NCBI GenBank assembly: GCA_020161395.1
Contig: JAIUOE010000001.1
Span: 124,001 to 188,000 of the forward strand
DNA length: 64,000 bases
Origin: Bacteroidota bacterium
GTDB taxonomy: Bacteria; Bacteroidota; Ignavibacteria; Ignavibacteriales; Ignavibacteriaceae
Reading direction: 5' to 3'
Program-made: the position numbers and the translations under genes
The notes under the pieces: generated by a model
Told to the model about the DNA's origin: nothing
Seen by the model: the letters and a program-made list of their open reading frames with translations, nothing else
Databases searched by the model: none
Part shown: piece by piece, positions 11,341 to 64,000 of the stretch
How positions within the stretch are numbered: the stretch's first letter is position 1
Layout: each line of letters begins with the position of its first letter

Positions 11341-14300
11341 ATGCCAAAGAAAAAAACAGACAATTCCGGTAATTCTTTCCTGCCCGTGGATTCACTTCCG
11401 ATTGGGATCGTGCTCTTCGACAACGACCTCGTGACCACCTCCATCAACTCCGCCCTCTTCAGGATGGGAGTGCTTAATCAGTCAATTTCGGAAGATAATC
11501 AATCTGTCAATCTCCTTGAAACCCCGCTTTTCGATTATGTCGATCTTGCTGATGACCTTTTGAAAGTGAAAGACGGGTTTGCTTTCGAAAAAGAGATAAG
11601 GAGAATAAGCTCGGGGAAAAGAAACATAAGCCTGATTTGCAAGTGTGTCCCCCTTTACGCAGAAAATGACTTTTCCGGCGGTCTGATAATTGTGGAGGAT
11701 CTCAGAATAATCCCCGAACTCGTCATGAGTACGAATCTCCACTACGAGAAGACCGGCGACATCCTTTCTTCATTATATGATCTCGTCTTTATCACTAAGG
11801 AAGATGGTAAAATTCTGTATTACGGAGGGCGAAAGGTCTTCAAGTATCTAAACGAGAGCTCACCTGTCCTGAAAGAGTCTGTTTTTTCACTCCTGAAGCT
11901 GAATCCGTCGTCCATGAAAGTGACAGAAGTGCAATCATCCTCTCTGATCGAACTTAAAAAGGACCGGGAATCATACTTTCTGAATCTTAAGTCAATTCCT
12001 TTCTTCGATTCTGACGAAAAACCAAGGATATTGTTCACCCTTGATGATGTGTCGATTCAGGAGATGAATATGAAATCTCTCGAAAGGCAGATAGGAGAAC
12101 TCTCGACTTATGCAGTTCTCGCTGAAAAGGGAGGGCTCGCAATTTTCTCTGTTAACAAAAAAAAGGATATTGTATCGTGGAGCAAGGAAGCCGAAAACTT
12201 TTTTGGCTATAAAAAACTTGAAGTCTTCAATAAGAATGTCTCCCTGATTATCAATCACTTCCCGCCGTCAATCAAGGGAGGAGTTTTCAGGTCTCTCTAC
12301 AACTCTTCAAAACACACCGGACTTGGTGAGTTCAGACTGATCGAAAACATCGATTCCCAGGGTGGTGCCACTGTCATCTGCCGGGATATTTTCGAAGAGG
12401 AAAAAGAGAAACGGGCACTCCACCTTACAAACAGGCAGTTAAGAACATTCTTAAATTCATCCGAAGACCTCATTTGCGAATTCGACAATGAAGGAAGAAT
12501 TATAAAAGCAAATGAAAGATTTTACTCGATTCTCTCCTACGATTCTCAAAAAAGCGACCTGAGTCTAAACGACCTTTTTACAGATGAGAACATCGTAATT
12601 GACCAGGTGCGCACTTCCGGCATTCAAAAAAGAAATTTAAAGGCAAAAACGAGCACCGGCAGGGTATTTCCTGCTGAAGTAACCTTTGTCTATTTTGAGG
12701 AAGATGAGACTTTCTCGAGTTTTGCCTGCCTGATAAGAGATATTTCCTCAAGGGAGAAGACTACTCAGGACATCCTTCTGATGCAGTCAATCTTCGAGGC
12801 ATCCAACGATGGAATTGCCGTTGAAGAAGCGGATTCTCTCATCTTTGTGAACAACAGCTTTGTGAGAATATTCGGTTATGATTCGGAGCTCGAAATAATC
12901 GGGAAAAGCTTCAATTCCTTCATACATCCTGTAGATGACCCGTTGAACTCAACAGAGGGAAAGGAATTTAACGGTGTAAAAAAAGACGGGAATGCTTTCA
13001 TCGCAGAGGTGTCGAGAGCTTCATTCGAATTTAACAACAAAACCTTTAATGTCCTAATCGTCAGGGACATCACTCAGATGAGGCTCGCCAGGAAACTGAT
13101 CGAGGAGTCCGAAGCAAAATACAGAAGCATAGCCGAGAATATTGATGACTTTTTGTGGGTCTCCGAAATAGTCGAAAACCGGCTCTCTCCTGTTTTTGTC
13201 ACATCCTCTTTTGTCGCCATGACCGGTTTTAAAGTATCAGAATTTGTCGGAAACAATCATTTCTGGTTCAGGATAATCCACCCTGAAGACCTCGATGGCT
13301 ATTTCCTCGACCTCAAAAACCTGCTCAGGAACAAATACAAAAACGGCGGTGCTCTTGAATGCAGAATAATCGCAAAAAACGGCGCCTCAATCTGGGTAAA
13401 AAATAAAATTTCTTTCGTGAGGGAGGGCGACAAGATTGTAAAAATGTTCGGGCTTGTTTCTGATATCACAAAACAAAAGCAGGCTGAAGACGAAATTAAC
13501 CAGTCCACCGAAAACCTGAAAAAGCTGAACGAAGCCAAAGACAGATTTATTTCCATTATCTCTCACGACATGAGAACCCCGTTCAGTTCCATCTTGGGAT
13601 TTACCGATTTCCTTCTCTCCGAGGAAATGTCGCCCGAAGAGATGAAGAAGTATATCACATATATTCAGGATTCGACAAAAATCATGCTCGGACTGGTAAA
13701 CTCCCTTCTCGACTGGACACGGCTCCAGACAGGAAAAATGAAGTTCGAACCCGTCAAACAAAATTTGCATCTAATCGTCAGCAAATCTTTTTCTGCAGTA
13801 TCCGGGACAGCCCTGCAAAAGAACATTACCCTTCAAAATAATATTCCTGAGGAAGTGGTTGTTTTTGTCGATCAAAATCTTGTGCTTCAGGTTTTCAACA
13901 ACCTCTTCTCGAATGCGATTAAATTCACTCCAAAAGGAGGTTTAATTACTGCCGGAATCACGGGGAAACTGGAAGGCAGGTTCCTTGAAGTATTTGTGAA
14001 GGATACAGGCGTGGGCATCAAAAAGGGGGATCTGGACAAGGTTTTCAAGGTCGATACGAAGTTCACAACGGTTGGTACTGCCGGTGAAAAGGGAACAGGT
14101 CTCGGATTAAGTCTTGTAAAGGAAATTGTTGAAAAACATGGAGGGAGTATTGATCTGACAAGCAAGGAGGGAGAAGGGACGACCTTTAATCTCTCGCTGC
14201 CAATCGCTTCATCCCGTATTGCACTCGTGGAAACCAGTGCCACCGACCAGGTACTGTACGCAAAGATCATCTCCAATCTCCTGCCGGGTTACGAGGTAGA

Positions 14301-54700: not shown

Positions 54701-54755
54701 ATTACTGCATTACTGGATTATTGCATTATTGCATTATTGCATTACTGGATTGTTT
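54701..54755. repeat. ATTGCATT tandem microsatellite
   Basis: Three perfect tandem 8-mers ATTGCATT occupy 54720-54743, flanked by degenerate ATTACTGG and ATTACTGC copies. The array starts near the lipoprotein promoter and ends at the stop codon of the ABC ATPase gene. It is non-coding and could act as a variable or transcript-end element, but this is unproved. Confidence 0.75.
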
Positions 54756-56052
54756 AGTTTTCCAGGAAGATACTCTCCGACTGATCGTCATAAACGAAGA
54801 TCTCGGCATATCTTCCCCAGTTCATCAGAATGTCAATCTGGTCTTCAGCTTCCTGAGGTAAAAACTCGAGTTCCAGAGCTGAGAGCAGGATATTTCTTTC
54901 AATTTCATGATTTGCTGCCCGCTTCAACATGTTCAGGAGCCACTTGAAGATTGGAATTCGTTTTACTCTCGAGGCAAATATCTCTTTCCTCGCTGTAATG
55001 GAGGCTTCGGCATAGGTTTCACCGAGGGGGGTAACGGAAATGTCACCTGAAGTGATGGTTACAAAGCCGAGCAGCTCCGCTGCTTCTGTAACTTCGAGAA
55101 GTTCATCAGACTCCAGTCCGAGTTCATCCGCGAGTTTGTAGATGTCGGAGTTTTTACCCGGCATATCGATAAGATTTTCGAGAATCGAGGAGATGTTTGC
55201 AAGCGGAATGTTTGGCAGTTTACGGGTGATACCGGGTTCACCGGGAGCAGTACCATACTCGAGGTACTCGGGTTGAGTCTGACCTGCAAGAACCGAATAG
55301 ACCTGATCAACCATGTGCTGAAATTCGGCATTTTTTCTGTTCCGGGGATGTGTCATCGACACCACCATTTCATTTATGATTTGACCCGGATTTTTATCCA
55401 TCACAACAATCCGGTCAGCCATTAAAACAGCCTCTTCGATATTGTGGGTGACCATTAAAATCGCCTGTGTGGGGAGTTTCCCTTCAGTCCAAAGTTCAAG
55501 AAGTTCACCGCGAAGTGTCTCGGCACTTAGCACATCGAGCGCAGAAAAAGGTTCATCGAGACAGAGGAGTTCAGGTTCTGCGACTATGGCTCTGGCAAAT
55601 CCCACTTTCTGCCTCATCCCTCCCGAAAGCTCTCTCGGGTATGCCATTTCATAACCGTCCATTCCCACCCTGTCAATCGCTTCGATTGCCCTTGCTGTTT
55701 TCATTTTGGCAGGGATGTCACGGTTGGCGAGCGCCAGCTCCACATTCTCGATTACATTGAACCACGGGAAAAGGGCAAATGTCTGGAATACAATTGTGGC
55801 ATTCGGATTAACTCCTTCAAGTTTCTCCCCGTTATAGAGGACTGAGCCCTTTGAGGCTTTTTGTAGCCCTGTTATTATCCTCAGCAGTGTGCTCTTGCCA
55901 CATCCCGAGGGTCCGACCAGAGCGACAAACTCGCCAGGATTAATCTTCAATTCGATATCGGAAAGGGCGGTAAACTTCTTTTGATCTTTGCCATAGATCT
56001 GACTGACCTTTTTTACATCAACCAGTGAAGCGTTTTTTTTCATTTCGTTCAT
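54754..56052 (-). CDS. ABC transporter ATP-binding protein with AAA-associated C-terminal domain
   Basis: 432 residues. The ABC domain (about 1-265) has Walker A LVGPSGCGKSTLLRI, signature ELSGGMRQKVGFARAIV and Walker B LLCLDEPFSALD, in the nitrate/sulfonate/taurine subfamily. The C-terminal about 165 residues are the AAA-associated domain (NISSILENLIDMPGK, then VTEAAELLGFVTI), seen in this class of importers. It is one base from the permease gene, so the two form one transporter. No substrate-binding protein gene is adjacent; the substrate is unknown. Confidence 0.88.
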   Translation of the reverse strand: MNEMKKNASLVDVKKVSQIYGKDQKKFTALSDIELKINPGEFVALVGPSGCGKSTLLRIITGLQKASKGSVLYNGEKLEGVNPNATIVFQTFALFPWFNVIENVELALANRDIPAKMKTARAIEAIDRVGMDGYEMAYPRELSGGMRQKVGFARAIVAEPELLCLDEPFSALDVLSAETLRGELLELWTEGKLPTQAILMVTHNIEEAVLMADRIVVMDKNPGQIINEMVVSMTHPRNRKNAEFQHMVDQVYSVLAGQTQPEYLEYGTAPGEPGITRKLPNIPLANISSILENLIDMPGKNSDIYKLADELGLESDELLEVTEAAELLGFVTITSGDISVTPLGETYAEASITARKEIFASRVKRIPIFKWLLNMLKRAANHEIERNILLSALELEFLPQEAEDQIDILMNWGRYAEIFVYDDQSESIFLEN

Positions 56053-56053
56053 C

Positions 56054-57769
56054 CTACTCTAACTTGAACCTGTCTTCAGCCAGATGGTAAAGACGGCGCC
56101 AAAAAAATCTGTTGATCAGAACCACGGTTATTACCATAACGAGTGTGGAAGCGAGGAGTTTGGGGAAATTCCCCTCCGCTGTTGCTTTTGCTATTGAAGA
56201 ACCGATGCCAATTGTTGAAACCGTATTACCGCTGAAGGTTACAAACTCTGCGACCACACTTGCGTTCCAGGCACCACCTCCGGCGGCAATTGCCCCCGTA
56301 ATCAAATAAGGGAAAAGTGCCGGAAGTATCAGGGTTTTCCATTTTTTTATCTGCCCGAGATGCAGAAGTCGCGCGGTATACTTCAGGTCCTGCGGAATCG
56401 CCGAGGCACCTGCTATTATATTAAAGAGAAGATACCACTGTGTCCCCATTAACATGAGAAGAATTGACGCGAGATTTACTCCAAAAGGAAGTGCAATTAC
56501 GAACATCAGAACCACCGGGAAAAGGGCAGTTGCCGGGATGGATGCAAAAATCTGTACCATTGGCTGTAAAAACCTTGCCACTTTTTTGTTTGTCGCAATT
56601 AGTACCCCGACAGGTATAGTCCACATAAAAGCTATCAGCAAAGCAGCGCATACCCTGAGAAATGTAGCGAAGACACCGAGCAGAATTTCCAGCCAGTCAG
56701 CCGGACCAACTTCAACCAGCATCACACCCGCTCCTGCCAGGCCTGTCAAAATAACTCCGCCAGTAAAATAAACTGCAATCTTTGCGGCAAGATCAGAGCC
56801 TTTCGAGTGTTCAACCGGGACTACGGGTTTACTTCTCCGCGAAAAAAAGAGGTCTATCCTCCTTCCGACCGGGAATAGAATATTCTCCTTTATTGAGTAC
56901 ACAATGTTTGAATTTACAATTACAGAATAGAACCATGAACCGGGAGGATCATCGCCCGTCGTCATTTCAAACTTGAATTTATCCGACCATGCAAGAAGGG
57001 GGCGCCATATCACCTGATCGAGAATCACAATTATCAGGATGAGCGTCACCACTCCATACATAATCGCAGTGTAGTTTCCCTTGTCTGATGCTTCGTGCAG
57101 GAAGGAACCCAGACCCGGAAGCCGGAAATCTTTGTCGCCCACGGTGAATATCTCAGCCGCCATCAGGAAGAACCAGCCCCCCGCCCAACTCATCATGCTG
57201 TTCCAGATAAAACTGATTGTACCAAAGGGAAACTCAAGATTCCTGAAGCGTTGCCACCTGTTCAGTTTGTTTATCTCCGCAGCTTCCTGAAGGTCTTTCG
57301 GAATTGTTGTGAGTGACTGGTACCAGGCAAAAGTCATGTTCCAAGCCTGTGAAGTGAAAATAAGGATAATTGAACCTGCCTCCACGGCAATTCCCTGCGG
57401 AAGTATAGCAGTTAAGCTCAGAACCACAACAGGTAAAAACGAGAGGATTGGAACGCTTTGGAGTACATCAAGGACGGGAATTAGAAACTTTTCGGCTTTT
57501 TTGTTGTATGCTGCAACTCTGCCGTAAACAAGGGTGAAGAGAACGGAAAGGGCGTAGGCTGCAAACATCCTCATGATTGAGAAGAATGCATAAACCGGCA
57601 GCGCTGAAGGGGAATCAGAAATGGTCGGTGCTGTTATATATTCGGGAGCGTATGCGGCAAGCTGTACCCCGGCGTAAAGCAGGGAAACAATGCAAAGCAC
57701 AACAAAAAGATCGACTAAACTGAATTCGCGCCGGTCGTTGAAAAAGAGGCTGTAAATGAAGTTGCGCAT
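56054..57769 (-). CDS. ABC transporter permease, tandem fused (SsuC/NrtB-like)
   Basis: 571 residues: two permease halves of the same family joined (about 50-260 and 345-560). Each carries an EAA-like loop (DLQEAAEINKLNRWQRF and DLKYTARLLHLGQIKKWK) that contacts the ATPase. It is a natural fused dimer that would pair with two copies of the ATPase encoded one base downstream. Each half has about five or six transmembrane helices. No binding protein is adjacent. Confidence 0.88.
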   Translation of the reverse strand: MRNFIYSLFFNDRREFSLVDLFVVLCIVSLLYAGVQLAAYAPEYITAPTISDSPSALPVYAFFSIMRMFAAYALSVLFTLVYGRVAAYNKKAEKFLIPVLDVLQSVPILSFLPVVVLSLTAILPQGIAVEAGSIILIFTSQAWNMTFAWYQSLTTIPKDLQEAAEINKLNRWQRFRNLEFPFGTISFIWNSMMSWAGGWFFLMAAEIFTVGDKDFRLPGLGSFLHEASDKGNYTAIMYGVVTLILIIVILDQVIWRPLLAWSDKFKFEMTTGDDPPGSWFYSVIVNSNIVYSIKENILFPVGRRIDLFFSRRSKPVVPVEHSKGSDLAAKIAVYFTGGVILTGLAGAGVMLVEVGPADWLEILLGVFATFLRVCAALLIAFMWTIPVGVLIATNKKVARFLQPMVQIFASIPATALFPVVLMFVIALPFGVNLASILLMLMGTQWYLLFNIIAGASAIPQDLKYTARLLHLGQIKKWKTLILPALFPYLITGAIAAGGGAWNASVVAEFVTFSGNTVSTIGIGSSIAKATAEGNFPKLLASTLVMVITVVLINRFFWRRLYHLAEDRFKLE

Positions 57770-57878: not shown

Positions 57879-59033
57879 CTAATACCGCTTTTCTACAACA
57901 AGTTTTCCCTCCTCCTTCAGCCTGGCGATGATGAGTGGAATAATTTTCTCCCTTCCCAGTATTCCCATTTGCGCAAATGAAATGTCGTCGGATGCAGGAT
58001 TTTTGGCAGACCCGATGAAAAAATTGATCCTGTCCGCTGCTGTTACCAGAGAATACAGGACTGTGACAGGATTGTCGGCATCGAGCTTTCGTGAATCTTC
58101 ATCCCAAATATTGTAAACCTGATTGAGAGTGACTGCCCCTTCGGTAACGAGATCGACTCCTTCAATTTCATAATCAGGCGGAGTTATCGTATCGGAGAAA
58201 TCCTCATTTACTGAAAGAGGTTTATTCAAAAACCGGGCTGCAATCTTCGCAGTTGAAGCTCCACAGATTATTTTTACTCCTGAATTTGCAAAAAATGATT
58301 CAAATGCCTCATCATCCTGTGAGGGATCTGCAGGTGGACCGGTAAAGACATTGACAATTCTTCCTTTTCTTGCAAATCCGAGAGCTACAGTAACATCGTC
58401 CCCCTGTTTCTCTCCCCAGTGAGTTACTGCTTCATCCCTGACAAGATCCGGAAGATGTTTAAATGATTCTCCCTTTTTCAGAAGGTGGTTCAAGTGTGCG
58501 GTAAGTCCTCCAACTTCCCACCCGTGTGTGAAAGATTTTCCGATTCCTGCCTGAGTAACCCCGTCGGTTACTGCCAGAATTCCCTCGCCCCGGTTTAAGA
58601 CACAGTTGATCTCTGTGATAAAGGCGGTTCCGTTGTTATAAATTCTTCCTTTTAATGGATATGCGGTTTTCCCTGAAAGGAATACCGGGAGTGGAGTCTC
58701 ATACGACAGAATCGTGGTCAAACCATCGTTCAGAACCCTGATGATGGTAATAGCCGAGTAAGGAAGATCTGCTCTCTTGGCATCCTCCATCGTAACGACA
58801 GTATTAGTGAATGCCTTGCGGAGGGAGAAACCTGTGCCGAGTAATTCATTAAGTCGTGATGCTGCCATTTCCGCGAAAATGTTCGCCCTTACTCCGGAAC
58901 CAAGCCCGTCACAAAGAATCAGGGTTGTATGTTGCTCCGTCCTGAGAATTTTGACCACATCACCACTTGGATGCCCCGGTTTTTTCGATTTCTGTGAAAC
59001 CTCTATTTCGATGTGTAGATATCCCATAGCCAT
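57879..59033 (-). CDS. PP2C/SpoIIE-type protein phosphatase in a sensory hydrogenase locus
   Basis: 384 residues. The N-terminal about 230 residues form a PP2C/SpoIIE domain: LILCDGLGSGVRANIFAEMA holds the metal-binding aspartate, and LAVTDGVTQAG and EKQGDDVTVALGF hold further metal aspartates. The C-terminal about 150 residues are unrecognised. It overlaps the upstream [FeFe]-hydrogenase gene by 31 bases, so the two are co-translated. A phosphatase paired with a PAS-containing hydrogenase indicates that H2 sensing controls protein phosphorylation. Its substrate cannot be seen; an anti-sigma antagonist is a reasonable guess. Confidence 0.85.
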   Translation of the reverse strand: MAMGYLHIEIEVSQKSKKPGHPSGDVVKILRTEQHTTLILCDGLGSGVRANIFAEMAASRLNELLGTGFSLRKAFTNTVVTMEDAKRADLPYSAITIIRVLNDGLTTILSYETPLPVFLSGKTAYPLKGRIYNNGTAFITEINCVLNRGEGILAVTDGVTQAGIGKSFTHGWEVGGLTAHLNHLLKKGESFKHLPDLVRDEAVTHWGEKQGDDVTVALGFARKGRIVNVFTGPPADPSQDDEAFESFFANSGVKIICGASTAKIAARFLNKPLSVNEDFSDTITPPDYEIEGVDLVTEGAVTLNQVYNIWDEDSRKLDADNPVTVLYSLVTAADRINFFIGSAKNPASDDISFAQMGILGREKIIPLIIARLKEEGKLVVEKRY

Positions 59034-60775
59034 TTCGATTTGTTTGTTGATCCCTTTCTGCTTTCATCCTCGGTAATTTTCATCAGATTTTCAAGCAGTT
59101 CCTCGCTTTTTGCCGTTCCCTCCCCCAGAATTTTAGCGAGAAACTGTGCTGTTTTTATCTGATGCTCGAGGAGTTCCTCTGCTTTTTTCAGGGTCTCTCC
59201 CCTGAGAGCGTCAAGTTGTTTTTTCTCTGATTCGCGGGTCGTGATATCCACAAAGATGCCAACAAATGCGTTTTCGCTTAGCCTGAAAACTTTTGCTTCG
59301 GCGGTCAGACTGTATCTCGCCAGTGTTACTGTTTCTTCGATCAAATCGACACCTCCGCCAATGATTCTTTCGAAGAGGTCGGGATCCATGATATTGGAAA
59401 CATGTTTCCCGATCGATGATCCGGTGCACATAAACATCTTCCGGAAAGCTTCGTTTATACTGATTATCGAAAGAGTTCTGTCTAAAACTATTATACCGTT
59501 CGGAGTTCTGTCTATAATCTGGTCAGCCCTCCTTTCGGCGAATCTCCTCATGTAAGGGATGCACATGGTGGTTTCAGCCATGCCTGCCAAAACCGCTTTT
59601 GCCTTGTCGCGACATGATTCATAGCCACAGGCTCCGCAGTTCAGTTCGTCGTCTTTTGTGTATTTCCCCGTTTGCAGCAGAATCTCTTTGATTTTTGCCT
59701 CTTCAAAATCACTGAGAAAGTTTTCTGACCTGTCGTGAAAGACAGTTGTGAGCTGCACCTGTTCTTCCACCAATGGTTCACCATGCTCCTTTTTGGATTG
59801 AGCATAAGCAAGCACATTAAGTTTCCTCTTCAGAATGTTCACTTCCGATTTAATACCGGGCCCGTTTATGCACCCCATCGAGCAAACAAGAGGCTCAATC
59901 AGGATCTTGCCACCCCTTTCCCCCGCAATGTTTAACGCCTCGAGCGTCCTTTCGAATCCGGACACAGAAACAATTTTTGTCTCTTCACTTTCTGAAGTGT
60001 TGCATACCCCGGCTGTGTCCACTATTCCTCCCGAAAGACAGTACGACTCTCCGCCGGTGTGTTTTTCCCAATCGAATCCACTTTCTTCAAGTTTGTTCAG
60101 ATCGATGTTCCTCTCCTCAAACCAGTCAAAAAGCTCTTCCATGGTTATCACAGCGTCAATAAGACCTTTGTACTCCGCAGAGTCGGCTTCCATCTTCTTC
60201 GCCACACACGGTCCGATAAAAACTGTTTTGCTCCCGGGACCCCTTCTCCTTTTTATCAATTTTGCCTCGGCTATCATCGGAGATGGAACCGGAATGATGG
60301 CATCAATCAGTTCGGGACGGTATTTCTCGGTATAAGCAGTTGCAGCGGGACATGAAGCCGAGATGCATCCCCTCCCCCTGGCGACCGACCTCAACGATTC
60401 CTTTGTGGTATAATATGCACCTTCAGCAACTTCGACGACAAGTGAAAAACCAAGCAACCGGAGAGCTGAAGGAAACCTCCTGATCAGTTCAGGTGGAAGC
60501 AAACCTGCAAAGGATGGTGCAACTGCTGCCACCACTTCCTCTCCCGATTCAAATAGCTCTTTAACCTTGTCGGTGTCCTTGCGGTAATATTTCGCTCCCT
60601 GCGGACATTCGGTTATACACTCTCCGCAGAAAATACACCGTTTCTCATCCACATAAGCCTGTCCGTTGCTAACCCCGACTGCTTTTACGGGACATACCCT
60701 CACGCAGCGGTAGCAATCCTGACATTTTGCCTTATTGGTAAATATATATGAGTTTTCACTTATGGTGTTTATCAT
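59003..60775 (-). CDS. sensory-type (PAS) [FeFe]-hydrogenase
   Basis: 590 residues. Two 4Fe-4S ferredoxin clusters (CQDCYRCVRVCP and CIFCGECITECP) precede the H-cluster domain. L1 reads SASCPAA with Cys142 kept but Ser141 where catalytic enzymes have the proton-relay Cys. L2 is IGPCVAKK (Cys190); L3 is CSMGC (Cys298 and Cys302). A further 4Fe-4S motif (CGACGYESC) and a PAS domain (about 425-520) follow, then a coiled tail. These are features of group C sensory hydrogenases (HydS) known from the literature, which bind H2 and signal rather than turn over rapidly. It is co-translated with a phosphatase and divergent from rex. Confidence 0.9.
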   Translation of the reverse strand: MINTISENSYIFTNKAKCQDCYRCVRVCPVKAVGVSNGQAYVDEKRCIFCGECITECPQGAKYYRKDTDKVKELFESGEEVVAAVAPSFAGLLPPELIRRFPSALRLLGFSLVVEVAEGAYYTTKESLRSVARGRGCISASCPAATAYTEKYRPELIDAIIPVPSPMIAEAKLIKRRRGPGSKTVFIGPCVAKKMEADSAEYKGLIDAVITMEELFDWFEERNIDLNKLEESGFDWEKHTGGESYCLSGGIVDTAGVCNTSESEETKIVSVSGFERTLEALNIAGERGGKILIEPLVCSMGCINGPGIKSEVNILKRKLNVLAYAQSKKEHGEPLVEEQVQLTTVFHDRSENFLSDFEEAKIKEILLQTGKYTKDDELNCGACGYESCRDKAKAVLAGMAETTMCIPYMRRFAERRADQIIDRTPNGIIVLDRTLSIISINEAFRKMFMCTGSSIGKHVSNIMDPDLFERIIGGGVDLIEETVTLARYSLTAEAKVFRLSENAFVGIFVDITTRESEKKQLDALRGETLKKAEELLEHQIKTAQFLAKILGEGTAKSEELLENLMKITEDESRKGSTNKSKWLWDIYTSK

Positions 60776-60910
60776 GTTAAGCCTTTGTCAATCTTTACGA
60801 ATTTAATAGTGCAATTACCGTGCCGAACCTGATTTTCGGAATATTTGCACTGTTTTGTCCCGGTTTTTCTCTTTTCCATCAAAAAAAATCCCGTATTTGA
60901 AAAATTTCTC

Positions 60911-60939
60911 TTGACAAATATCGTAATTTTCTATATTTT
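60911..60939 (+). promoter_or_regulatory. sigma70-type promoter of rex
   Basis: TTGACA at 60911-60916 and TATTTT at 60934-60939, spaced by 17 bases, in the AT-rich gap between the sensory hydrogenase and rex. Transcription would begin about 60946, at the start of three tandem 14-bp repeats. Confidence 0.6.
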
Positions 60940-60945
60940 AATCAG

Positions 60946-60987
60946 TATAAATTTCTCGATATATTTTTCTCGATATAAAATTCTCTA
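60946..60987 (+). repeat. three tandem 14-bp repeats in the rex leader
   Basis: Units TATAAATTTCTCGA (60946-60959), TATATTTTTCTCGA (60960-60973) and TATAAAATTCTCTA (60974-60987) follow one another without gaps. They start at the predicted transcription start and end 18 bases before the rex ATG. The exact 14-bp period suggests repeated binding sites for a regulator or a replication of an operator half-site. No match to the known Rex operator (TTGTGA-type palindrome) was seen. Confidence 0.75.
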
Positions 60988-61005: not shown

Positions 61006-61662
61006 ATGATGACCAAAGAGATAAAACAAGTCCCCGAACCGGTTCTTAGAAGACTTCCACGCTATTTGCAGATACTTCACAGAATGAAAGAAGACGGTAT
61101 AAGGGAAGTGTCGAGTACCAAGATTGCGGACGAACTTTCCCTCGATCCGACACAGGTAAGAAAAGATATCGAGTTTACAGGGATTGTTGGAAGACCTAAA
61201 ACGGGTTTCCTGATACCGGAGCTGATTCAGGCGATTGAAAGCTTTTTAAATTGGGACAACATAAATGATGCTTTCCTCGCAGGAGCAGGTAGCCTCGGCA
61301 CTGCCCTGATGGGTTACCCGAACTTCAAAAGTTACGGACTGAATATAGTGGCAGCTTTCGACAACAACCCCGGCAAGACAGACGGTTTGATCCGTGACAT
61401 CCCCGTTATTCACATCGACAAACTGACGGATCTCGCCCAAAGGATGCACATCCATATCGGAATTATCACGGTTCCTGCCCCCCAGGCTAATGCGGTTGCT
61501 GCCATGATGGTCGAGGGAGGAATTAAAGCAATTTGGAACTTCGCCCCCGTGCAACTCCGGGTACCCGAGGACATTATCGTCGAGAATGTTCTGCTTCACG
61601 CAGGACTTTCCGTTCTTAAAAGAAAACTCGGACAAGTGTTAAAAGACCAGTTACAAGGATAA
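61006..61662 (+). CDS. rex: redox-sensing transcriptional repressor Rex
   Basis: 218 residues. The winged-helix N-domain (about 10-85) has RRLPRYLQILHRM and SSTKIADELSLDPTQVRKDIEFTG. The Rossmann NADH-binding C-domain has AFLAGAGSLGTALMGYPNF and AFDNNPGK, then a domain-swap helix at the end. Rex binds DNA when NADH/NAD+ is low and leaves it when NADH rises, controlling fermentation and hydrogenase genes. It is four bases upstream of the NuoE-like gene, so it is the first gene of the hydrogenase operon and may autoregulate. Confidence 0.95.
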   Translation: MMTKEIKQVPEPVLRRLPRYLQILHRMKEDGIREVSSTKIADELSLDPTQVRKDIEFTGIVGRPKTGFLIPELIQAIESFLNWDNINDAFLAGAGSLGTALMGYPNFKSYGLNIVAAFDNNPGKTDGLIRDIPVIHIDKLTDLAQRMHIHIGIITVPAPQANAVAAMMVEGGIKAIWNFAPVQLRVPEDIIVENVLLHAGLSVLKRKLGQVLKDQLQG

Positions 61663-61665
61663 ATT

Positions 61666-62175
61666 ATGCAAAGCACAGAAACAGGACAAGCGGCAAGAAA
61701 ATTTGCCAAAGTGTGCGAAATACTCGAAAAATATGAATATAAATCTGAAAAACTAATACCAGTACTACAGGCTGTACAGGAAGAATACCGGTATCTCCCC
61801 GAAGATGTTCTTGCTTTTATTGCCACCACCCTCGACATTTCACCGGCGCGCATCTATGGCGTCGCTACATTTTATTCACACTTTGCTCTCGCCCCAAAAG
61901 GTAAATTCGTTATCAAAGTATGCGACGGCACTGCCTGTCATGTTAAAGGTTCACTCCCTTTGATAGATGAAATAAGAAAAACTCTTAACCTGAAACCGGG
62001 AAAAGAAACAACCGATGACCTCCTCTTCACGCTGGAGACCGTGTCGTGTCTGGGTGCCTGCGGAATTGCCCCTGTGGTTGTGGTGAACGATGAAGTACAC
62101 TCACTCATGACTCCGGGGAAAACAACGGCAATGATTCAGGAAATAATCGGTATGGAGAAATTAAACGATGAATAA
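61666..62175 (+). CDS. NuoE/HndA-like [2Fe-2S] subunit of NAD-linked hydrogenase
   Basis: 169 residues with the thioredoxin-like 2Fe-2S fold. The four Cys ligands are in KVCDGTACHVKGS (about residues 85-97) and SCLGACGIAP (about 126-135). The N-terminal helical bundle (LIPVLQAVQEEYRYLPEDVL) is as in NuoE. It is the small subunit of electron-bifurcating, NAD-dependent [FeFe]-hydrogenases (HydC/HndA) or complex I. Rex upstream and the following NuoF-like subunit support a hydrogenase. Its stop overlaps the next gene. Confidence 0.93.
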   Translation: MQSTETGQAARKFAKVCEILEKYEYKSEKLIPVLQAVQEEYRYLPEDVLAFIATTLDISPARIYGVATFYSHFALAPKGKFVIKVCDGTACHVKGSLPLIDEIRKTLNLKPGKETTDDLLFTLETVSCLGACGIAPVVVVNDEVHSLMTPGKTTAMIQEIIGMEKLNDE

Positions 62176-64000
62176 AAGAGAATTAAACAGAATAAAAGAG
62201 GACTTCTCAAAACGGTATGCACAGGTTAGCCGGAGAATAATTATTTGTGCCGGAACAGGCTGCATGGCAAACGGCGCCCTCAAAATAAGCAACGAATTTA
62301 AACAGATTTCAGCCCTCATGGGTTTGCAGATCGAAACCGAACTAAAGCAGGAGGAGAACAAATTCAACCTCCTGACAGGAAGCGGTTGTCAGGGTTTCTG
62401 CCAGATGGGTCCTCTCGTTACGGTGGAACCCGAAGGCATCTTCTATGTAAAAGTCCAGCCGGAAGATGTGGCAGAGATTATTCAGGAGACTGTCCTTAAC
62501 GGAAGACCGGTGGAAAGACTTCTCTATAAAGGGAAACCCTCTGATAAAATCTGCAAAACCATTAATGACATCAACTTCTACAAAAAACAGACCAGAAAAG
62601 TCCTCCGTGACTGTGGTAATATTAATCCCGAGGATATAGAAGAGTACATTCACAGAGGTGGATACGCTGCTGCAGAAAAAGCACTCACTGAAATGAGCAG
62701 TGAAGATGTCTGCAAAGAGATTCTCAACTCGGGACTCAGAGGCAGAGGCGGTGGCGGATTCCCGACCGGCAAAAAATGGCTCATGGCAATGGGTGAGAAA
62801 AACGAAAAGAAATATATTATCTGCAACGGTGACGAAGGCGATCCCGGTGCATTTATGGACAGAAGTGTGATGGAGGGAAATCCCCACTCGGTTATCGAAG
62901 GGATGATTATCGCAGCTTTTGCCATTGGTGCCGACGAGGGATATGTCTATGTGAGACTTGAGTATCCTCTCGCTGTTAAAAGAATAAAAAAAGCAGTTGA
63001 GACCGCCGAAAAATATGGCATCCTCGGAAAAAACATATTTGGGACAGATAAAAACTTCACGATTCATGTGATGGAGGGCGCAGGTGCTTTCGTCTGCGGT
63101 GAAGAAACCGCCCTTATCTCTTCCATTGAAGGAAAACGGGGGATGCCGGCTCCAAAGCCTCCATTTCCCGCTCAGTGTGGTCTTTTTGGGAAACCCACAA
63201 TTATTAATAATGTTGAAACCCTCGCTTCCGTCCCGGGAATTATCCTGAATGGTGCCGCTGAATACCGTTCTCTCGGAACCCCCGAGTCACCCGGCACAAA
63301 AACATTTGCCCTTACGGGACATGTGGTGAACACAGGCTTGATAGAAGTGCCTTTCGGTTCAACCTTGAGGCAGATAATCTTTGACATTGGTGGAGGTGTG
63401 ACAGATGATGACGGGAATCTTGATCCCGACGGATTCAAGGCTGTACAGATCGGCGGACCCTCCGGTGGATGCCTTACAAGCGAGCACCTGGACCTCCCGT
63501 TAAGTTTCGACTCGCTCCGGTCGATTGGTGCAATGGTAGGTTCAGGCGGCCTTGTTGTGATGAATAAAAATACCTGCATGGTAAAAATTGCAAAATATTT
63601 CATGCAATTCACCCAAAACGAATCGTGCGGGAAGTGTGTCCCCTGCCGTGAAGGGACGAAACAAATGCTCGCCCTCCTCGATGACATCACTGAGGGAAAA
63701 GCTGATGAGCATACTCTTGAGATTCTTGAAAATCTCGGTAGAGCAATCACGAAGGCTTCACTTTGCGGACTCGGAAAGACAGCTCCAAACCCTGTCCTCT
63801 CACTTATGACCAGTTTCAGGGAGGAAATGGAAACACATGTGATGCAGAAAAGATGCCCCGCAAAAAAATGCAAAAGTCTCCTCACTCCGGTCGTAATCGA
63901 AGAGAAGTGCAAAGGCTGTGGCCTCTGTATCAAAAAATGCCCGGTGGGTGCCATAACCGGTGAGAAGAAACAACCCCACTTTATCAATGAATCGCTTTGC
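62168..64000 (+). CDS. NuoF/HydB-like NADH-binding hydrogenase subunit, partial
   Basis: The frame is open from ATG 62168 (overlapping the previous stop) to the window end: 611 codons with no stop. It has an N-terminal 2Fe-2S thioredoxin-like domain (CAGTGCMANG, GSGCQGFCQMG). The FMN and NADH domain follows (GRGGGGFPTGKKW, YIICNGDEGDPGAFMDRS), with a 4Fe-4S site ESCGKCVPCREGT. C-terminal ferredoxins begin with CKGCGLCIKKCPVGAI; the second cluster is cut after SLC. This matches HydB/HndC, which carries NADH electrons in bifurcating hydrogenases. The catalytic HydA gene should lie just beyond base 64000. Confidence 0.93.
   Translation, partial: MNKRELNRIKEDFSKRYAQVSRRIIICAGTGCMANGALKISNEFKQISALMGLQIETELKQEENKFNLLTGSGCQGFCQMGPLVTVEPEGIFYVKVQPEDVAEIIQETVLNGRPVERLLYKGKPSDKICKTINDINFYKKQTRKVLRDCGNINPEDIEEYIHRGGYAAAEKALTEMSSEDVCKEILNSGLRGRGGGGFPTGKKWLMAMGEKNEKKYIICNGDEGDPGAFMDRSVMEGNPHSVIEGMIIAAFAIGADEGYVYVRLEYPLAVKRIKKAVETAEKYGILGKNIFGTDKNFTIHVMEGAGAFVCGEETALISSIEGKRGMPAPKPPFPAQCGLFGKPTIINNVETLASVPGIILNGAAEYRSLGTPESPGTKTFALTGHVVNTGLIEVPFGSTLRQIIFDIGGGVTDDDGNLDPDGFKAVQIGGPSGGCLTSEHLDLPLSFDSLRSIGAMVGSGGLVVMNKNTCMVKIAKYFMQFTQNESCGKCVPCREGTKQMLALLDDITEGKADEHTLEILENLGRAITKASLCGLGKTAPNPVLSLMTSFREEMETHVMQKRCPAKKCKSLLTPVVIEEKCKGCGLCIKKCPVGAITGEKKQPHFINESLC

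Follow-up and report, generated by a model that had tools for sequence, protein, structure and literature searches.

Group C [FeFe]-hydrogenases are believed to serve fermenters as H2 sensors, and in the literature found no output pathway has been shown for them. The window (the whole stretch of DNA analysed, 64,000 nucleotides) encodes a hydrogenase of this kind, HydS, whose gene overlaps that of a phosphatase, PP2C. What would such a sensor report to, and what would it control? The following features define the pair.

57879 to 59033, minus strand: pp2c, a SpoIIE/PPM-type phosphatase of 384 aa with the PPM domain at residues 1-219 (Pfam, alignment, model)
59003 to 59033, minus strand: the 31-nt overlap of hydS and pp2c (ORFs)
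59003 to 60775, minus strand: hydS, a group C [FeFe]-hydrogenase sensor of 590 aa (ORF, Pfam, alignment, model, tree)

A sensory-type hydrogenase paired with a phosphatase

Both ORFs lie where the first-pass annotation had placed them, and the overlap is exactly 31 nt. An alternative pp2c start, an in-frame ATG two codons on (59027), would shorten the overlap to 25 nt; it agrees with the start of several relatives, and a 25-nt overlap is common elsewhere. HydS is encoded immediately upstream in 77 of 87 PP2C genes, usually overlapping or separated by a few bases. Several of the 10 PP2C genes without an adjacent HydS are situated at contig ends, and others may be gene-calling errors. In three loci (L083, L089, and L135) two HydS-PP2C pairs stand in tandem in one gene row, with an 87-aa protein encoded between the pairs in L083 and L089.

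The pairing had been put forward as a possibly undescribed signalling route, which is not supported. HydDB lists group C3 as phosphatase-linked, putatively H2-sensing [FeFe]-hydrogenases (PMC5037454), a HydS of Ruminococcus albus has been described with a Ser/Thr phosphatase (PMC6776011), and in Hydrogenedentota group C3 genes adjoin A3 hydrogenases (PMC11406978), so the HydS-PP2C pair as such is already known. The feature by which HydDB defines C3, a Ser/Thr phosphatase encoded alongside, is found here, and judged by this linkage the window pair is probably of the group C3 type. The core of the system is thus ordinary, and its regulatory context is the new part.

HydS consists of two N-terminal 4Fe-4S motifs (Pfam), the H-cluster domain (Fe_hyd_lg_C, residues 80-306, E 1.1e-42), a 4-Cys Fe-S motif, a PAS-like segment, and a C-terminal helix, with the following positions.

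60353 to 60355, minus strand: codon of Ser141, the proton-relay position of L1 (SASCP) (ORF and alignment)
59555 to 59644, minus strand: C-terminal 4-Cys Fe-S motif, residues 378-407 (PF04060)
59246 to 59497, minus strand: PAS-like domain, residues ~427-510 (sub-threshold Pfam match and model)
59060 to 59242, minus strand: long signalling helix, residues 512-572 (model and alignment)

As the annotation had read from the single sequence, the H-cluster ligands C142, C190, C298, and C302 of motifs L1, L2, and L3 are kept; they are identical in all 68 phosphatase-linked HydS proteins, and so are C380, C383, C388, and C405 of the C-terminal Fe-S motif. The PAS domain reported to follow this third Fe-S motif falls just below the Pfam cut-off (20.2 versus 21.8 bits) and is recovered in an AlphaFold2 model (pLDDT 91) built with 68 aligned relatives, which has a hydrogenase core and, at residues ~427-510, a PAS-like alpha/beta segment. 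Directly after it, residues 512-572 are modelled as a single 60-residue helix, in which A547, L550, G551, and E552 are near-invariant; we propose this helix as the contact with PP2C.

Ser141 had been taken as the mark of a sensor. The residue is real, and some 10% of sensory enzymes are reported to carry Ser at the relay position (PMC10055695). Among the 68 phosphatase-linked HydS, position 141 is Ala in 40, Cys in 16, and Ser in 6, with other residues in the rest, which makes Ser there neither unusual nor diagnostic; since 16 paired HydS retain Cys there, the argument for sensing drawn from it is weak. Phylogeny supports the group C sensory type that had been assigned. In a tree of 76 hydrogenase domains, built by a quick method and with no references from groups B and D, the 25 catalytic HydA rows, three of them from the window genome, all fell into one clade (SH-aLRT 99). 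The window HydS fell outside it and inside a set of 22 HydS-PP2C rows (SH-aLRT 98), on a long branch; it stood apart from each catalytic HydA sampled and was not placed within group A.

PP2C matches PF07228 (E 8.9e-11). Of its metal-binding aspartates, Asp42, Asp157, Asp212, and Asp213 show no variation among 77 sequences and Asp25 next to none, and by these residues the protein is apparently an active phosphatase. The AlphaFold2 model (77 aligned relatives, pLDDT 94.5) comprises the PPM domain and a C-terminal alpha/beta domain.

57879 to 58376, minus strand: C-terminal alpha/beta domain of PP2C, residues 220-384 (model)

A fold search with the whole model gave matches with Z of ~25 to 3pu9 and 5ucg, dominated by the PPM domain. 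The C-terminal domain, with motifs KIICGxxTA and G-DLVTEG, is common to all 77 aligned HydS-linked phosphatases and has no meaningful match in Pfam, NCBIfam, PHROGs, or PDB sequences; PP2C thus carries a conserved domain without an assigned sequence family.

The pair belongs to a cassette with Rex and a bifurcating-type hydrogenase

The genes divergent from hydS in the window are the following.

61006 to 61662, plus strand: rex, with a variant recognition helix, QVRKDIEFTG (Pfam, NCBIfam, alignment)
61666 to 62175, plus strand: hydC, a NuoE-like subunit (Pfam)
62168 to 64000, plus strand: hydB, a NuoF-like subunit, which continues past the window end and is followed by hydA in the genome (ORF, genome)

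The cassette rex-hydCBA-hydS-pp2c was found in several phyla. In L059 to L066 the genes run rex-hydC-hydB-hydA-hydS-pp2c on a single strand, and in the window genus hydS-pp2c is divergent from rex. A further 80 loci, drawn from Ignavibacteria, Hydrogenedentota, Phycisphaerae, Omnitrophota, Clostridia, and other groups, had no large shared clusters besides HydS/HydA, PP2C, NuoE-like, HydB, and Rex. The suggested search for a conserved third gene thus led to Rex with hydCBA as the recurrent genes, and not to a sigma or anti-sigma factor. A conserved sigma, anti-sigma, or STAS partner was absent from these recurrent clusters and families, and the cassette itself encodes neither a substrate nor a kinase.

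Among 41 related genomes, Rex is present in 12/12 with this PP2C and in 2/29 without it (Fisher p ~1e-8, with kinship ignored); one of the two exceptions (G002) is a cut contig with a divergent hydS and rex at its end. Many HydS-PP2C loci have no Rex nearby. Because Rex commonly regulates fermentative genes, its linkage may reflect hydCBA and not HydS-PP2C. In L069, L070, and L071, however, rex, a 2Fe-2S gene, hydS, and pp2c stand together without hydCBA, which means that hydCBA alone does not account for the presence of Rex.

Other neighbours were also observed. Downstream of pp2c, positions 54754-57769 encode a nitrate/taurine-type ABC transporter (a fused double permease and an ATPase with AAA_assoc_C); its genes are shared only with the congeneric genome G003 and were rejected as part of the system. 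Two alike short ORFs (VETPLRPGAQ...) lie between the cluster genes of L060 (10662-10970 and 13330-13635) and probably represent two copies of a repeat element of intergenic regions. On another contig of the window genome (C2), L073 carries at 12193-14211 (minus strand) a second HydS in fusion with a histidine kinase; a response regulator gene comes next, and a second hydABC cluster adjoins. This arrangement is in line with the idea of interchangeable HydS outputs.

The composition of the cassette bears on how PP2C might signal. In classical partner switching, the mode of RsbU, RsbP, and SpoIIE, it would dephosphorylate a STAS anti-anti-sigma protein from another locus. PP2C belongs to the SpoIIE/RsbU family, the fold search placed it closest to SpoIIE and to the Rv1364c RsbU domain, and the window genome holds 9 STAS matches and 3 strong RsbW-like ATPases. 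All of these are encoded away from the module: neither a STAS nor an RsbW gene occurs in the cassette, and among 76 other neighbour proteins scanned with Pfam no STAS, RsbW, or anti-sigma family recurred. PP2C is moreover the weakest SpoIIE match in the genome, at 44 bits versus 113-163 for the other 11. We therefore regard partner switching as unlikely, at about one chance in four.

Variant Rex proteins are linked to an unusual promoter motif

The window Rex has the winged helix and the nucleotide-binding domain of the family (PF06971 and PF02629) and scores 271 bits against NF003994, with a cut-off of 130. Its recognition helix follows a variant pattern, QVRKD[IL]xxTG...GKPKxG(Y/F), whereas canonical Rex proteins in the same set (L123, L133, and L148) read RxDLSYFG or nearly so. 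A third type, with the helix RKDFSLFG or RKDFSVFG, is found in L068 with another palindrome upstream; these paralogues (L067:12254-12892 and L068:12399-13025) are preceded by TGTCCGYA...TRCGGACA.

The published operator consensus of Rex is TTGTGAANNNNTTCACAA. In the divergent promoter of the window the best match to this box has two mismatches and is displaced, and it was rejected as the operator. The region instead contains the following elements.

60910 to 60975, no strand: footprint between the divergent hydS and rex genes, conserved in three congeneric genomes
60911 to 60939, plus strand: rex promoter-like site TTGACA-17-TATTTT, with 10/12 matches, in a region whose count of such sites is not above that of shuffles
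60946 to 60987, no strand: three tandem 14-bp units (TATAWWWTTCTCGA), a predicted operator (repeat search, genome scan, alignment)

This tandem form occurs at this one place in the genome. About 65 bp over the 14-bp units and the rex promoter are almost unchanged among the three congeneric genomes, while the flanks diverge. Upstream of rex in other genomes, [AC]TCGA[TG] cores occur twice, 14 bp apart, in direct or inverted orientation. Written as MTCGAK-N8-MTCGAK with at most one mismatch, the motif is present in 18/28 variant-rex promoters versus 3/368 other upstream regions of the same loci; dinucleotide shuffles gave a mean of 0.17, and when spacings of 8 to 20 were scored only 14 bp stood out. 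The core was drawn from part of the scored sequences, and later-found rex genes therefore weigh more. Most of these match: L157, L159, L161, L173, and L174 carry exact pairs and L160 a pair with two mismatches. The solitary rex genes of G029 and G153 have no good match upstream.

A tighter pattern scanned over 33 genomes yielded ~32 sites versus 3 control sites. On inspection of the extra sites, those with A+T-rich spacers lay mostly at rex promoters and those with G+C-rich spacers mostly inside ORFs. The motif precedes adhE in G030 (L196 site 4084), a zinc-type alcohol dehydrogenase gene in G023 (L195 site 3785), and a row of rex, [FeFe] hydrogenase, and adhE in G032 (L159:6632-11627); adhE is a published Rex target (PMC6391272). 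Further copies in the window genome were considered as a regulon and rejected: three other exact pairs are inside ORFs, and a reversed-pattern control is equally frequent.

Does Rex itself bind the motif? Its linkage to the motif, the class of target genes, and the changed helix suggest that it may. The motif could instead be bound by another regulator encoded elsewhere, with Rex merely downstream. A perfect TTGTGA...TCACAA box occurs in L148, the new motif shares a single promoter with a canonical Rex box in L068, and L086 has a near-canonical box only; because of the last two, another binder is conceivable, and the two solitary-rex genomes lacking a good motif point the same way. Against this, the motif follows rex across phyla, including the L159 rex that stands beside a hydrogenase without PP2C, it occurs before alcohol dehydrogenase genes, the usual class of Rex targets, and the motif-linked Rex proteins have a recognition helix unlike the canonical type. 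We consider a separate regulator doubtful, and give it the same weight as partner switching. A literature search, which did not include the Ravcheev 2012 survey of Rex regulons, returned no TATCGATA-type Rex site. What is new is a Rex variant travelling with HydS-PP2C and a motif, unlike the usual Rex site, that is shared by promoters of such rex genes in several phyla.

A proposed dual-sensing mechanism

We favour a reading in which a group C3-type H2-sensing module and the Rex repressor would together control the neighbouring hydrogenase operon, HydS-PP2C responding to H2 and Rex to NADH; we put its probability at roughly 0.62. HydS would bind H2 at its H-cluster with low turnover, and a redox or ligand change would pass from the C-terminal Fe-S cluster through the PAS segment to the 60-residue helix. 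The helix would then switch the separately encoded PP2C, much as RsbP is believed to control the phosphatase domain within the same protein through its PAS-coil region, and PP2C would remove phosphate from a Ser/Thr-phosphorylated target. Independently, Rex as an NADH-type repressor would use MTCGAK-N8-MTCGAK as its operator between the divergent genes, holding down rex-hydCBA, and probably hydS-pp2c too, until NADH rises. A broader proposal, to which we give even odds, is that the Rex subfamily found with HydS-PP2C in several phyla has come to prefer pairs of MTCGAK cores at 14-bp spacing as its DNA site, so that a promoter region under the NADH sensor Rex reports to, or is tuned by, the H2 sensor via the phosphatase.

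PP2C might also act directly on Rex or on the cassette hydrogenase subunits, and so join the H2 and NADH signals. Rex and HydCBA are its sole recurrent partners, and Rex accompanies HydS-PP2C even without hydCBA. Gene linkage is however no proof of a substrate relation, and our literature search returned no report of control by Rex phosphorylation; we rate this direct route slightly below the two alternatives above. A slow catalytic role for the hydrogenase HydS, with PP2C as an unrelated co-transcribed gene, is highly improbable: the H-cluster ligands are intact and the Thermotoga maritima HydS (TmHydS) has measurable activity (PMC10055695), but the pairing is near-constant across phyla, HydS has the PAS-like segment and long helix, most members lack the proton-relay Cys, and the clade is separate from HydA.

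Under the dual-sensing reading, a compact and widespread cassette of predicted H2 sensor, phosphatase, NADH-type repressor, hydrogenase, and predicted operator offers a concrete test system. Regulon predictions that rely on the TTGTGA box would likewise need correction if a Rex subfamily does use another operator.

Comparison with known systems

The closest relatives are the HydDB C3 systems including that of R. albus, which share a PAS-containing HydS next to a Ser/Thr phosphatase, located by a hydrogenase operon (PMC5037454, PMC6776011). The R. albus cluster is centred on an enzyme of group A1 together with an alcohol dehydrogenase, whereas the window cassette contains rex and a bifurcating-type hydCBA; the window genus further differs in having hydS-pp2c divergent from rex. 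TmHydS likewise keeps the H-cluster cysteines, has the proton-relay Cys replaced, and contains a PAS domain (PMC10055695), with Ala at the relay position in place of the Ser of the window HydS.

With known Rex, the NADH-responsive repressor, the window protein shares the winged-helix and nucleotide-binding architecture, the NCBIfam Rex equivalog, and the linkage to hydrogenase and alcohol dehydrogenase genes. It differs in its helix (RKDIEFTG versus RxDLSYFG) and in its predicted operator (MTCGAK-N8-MTCGAK versus TTGTGAANNNNTTCACAA).

RsbP is a stress phosphatase of Bacillus with a PAS-coil-PPM layout. It serves here as a working analogy, in which a PAS domain and a helix control a PPM phosphatase. 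In the window, by contrast, the sensor and phosphatase roles fall to two proteins, with a hydrogenase as the sensor, and the cassette is without sigma-B partner-switch genes.
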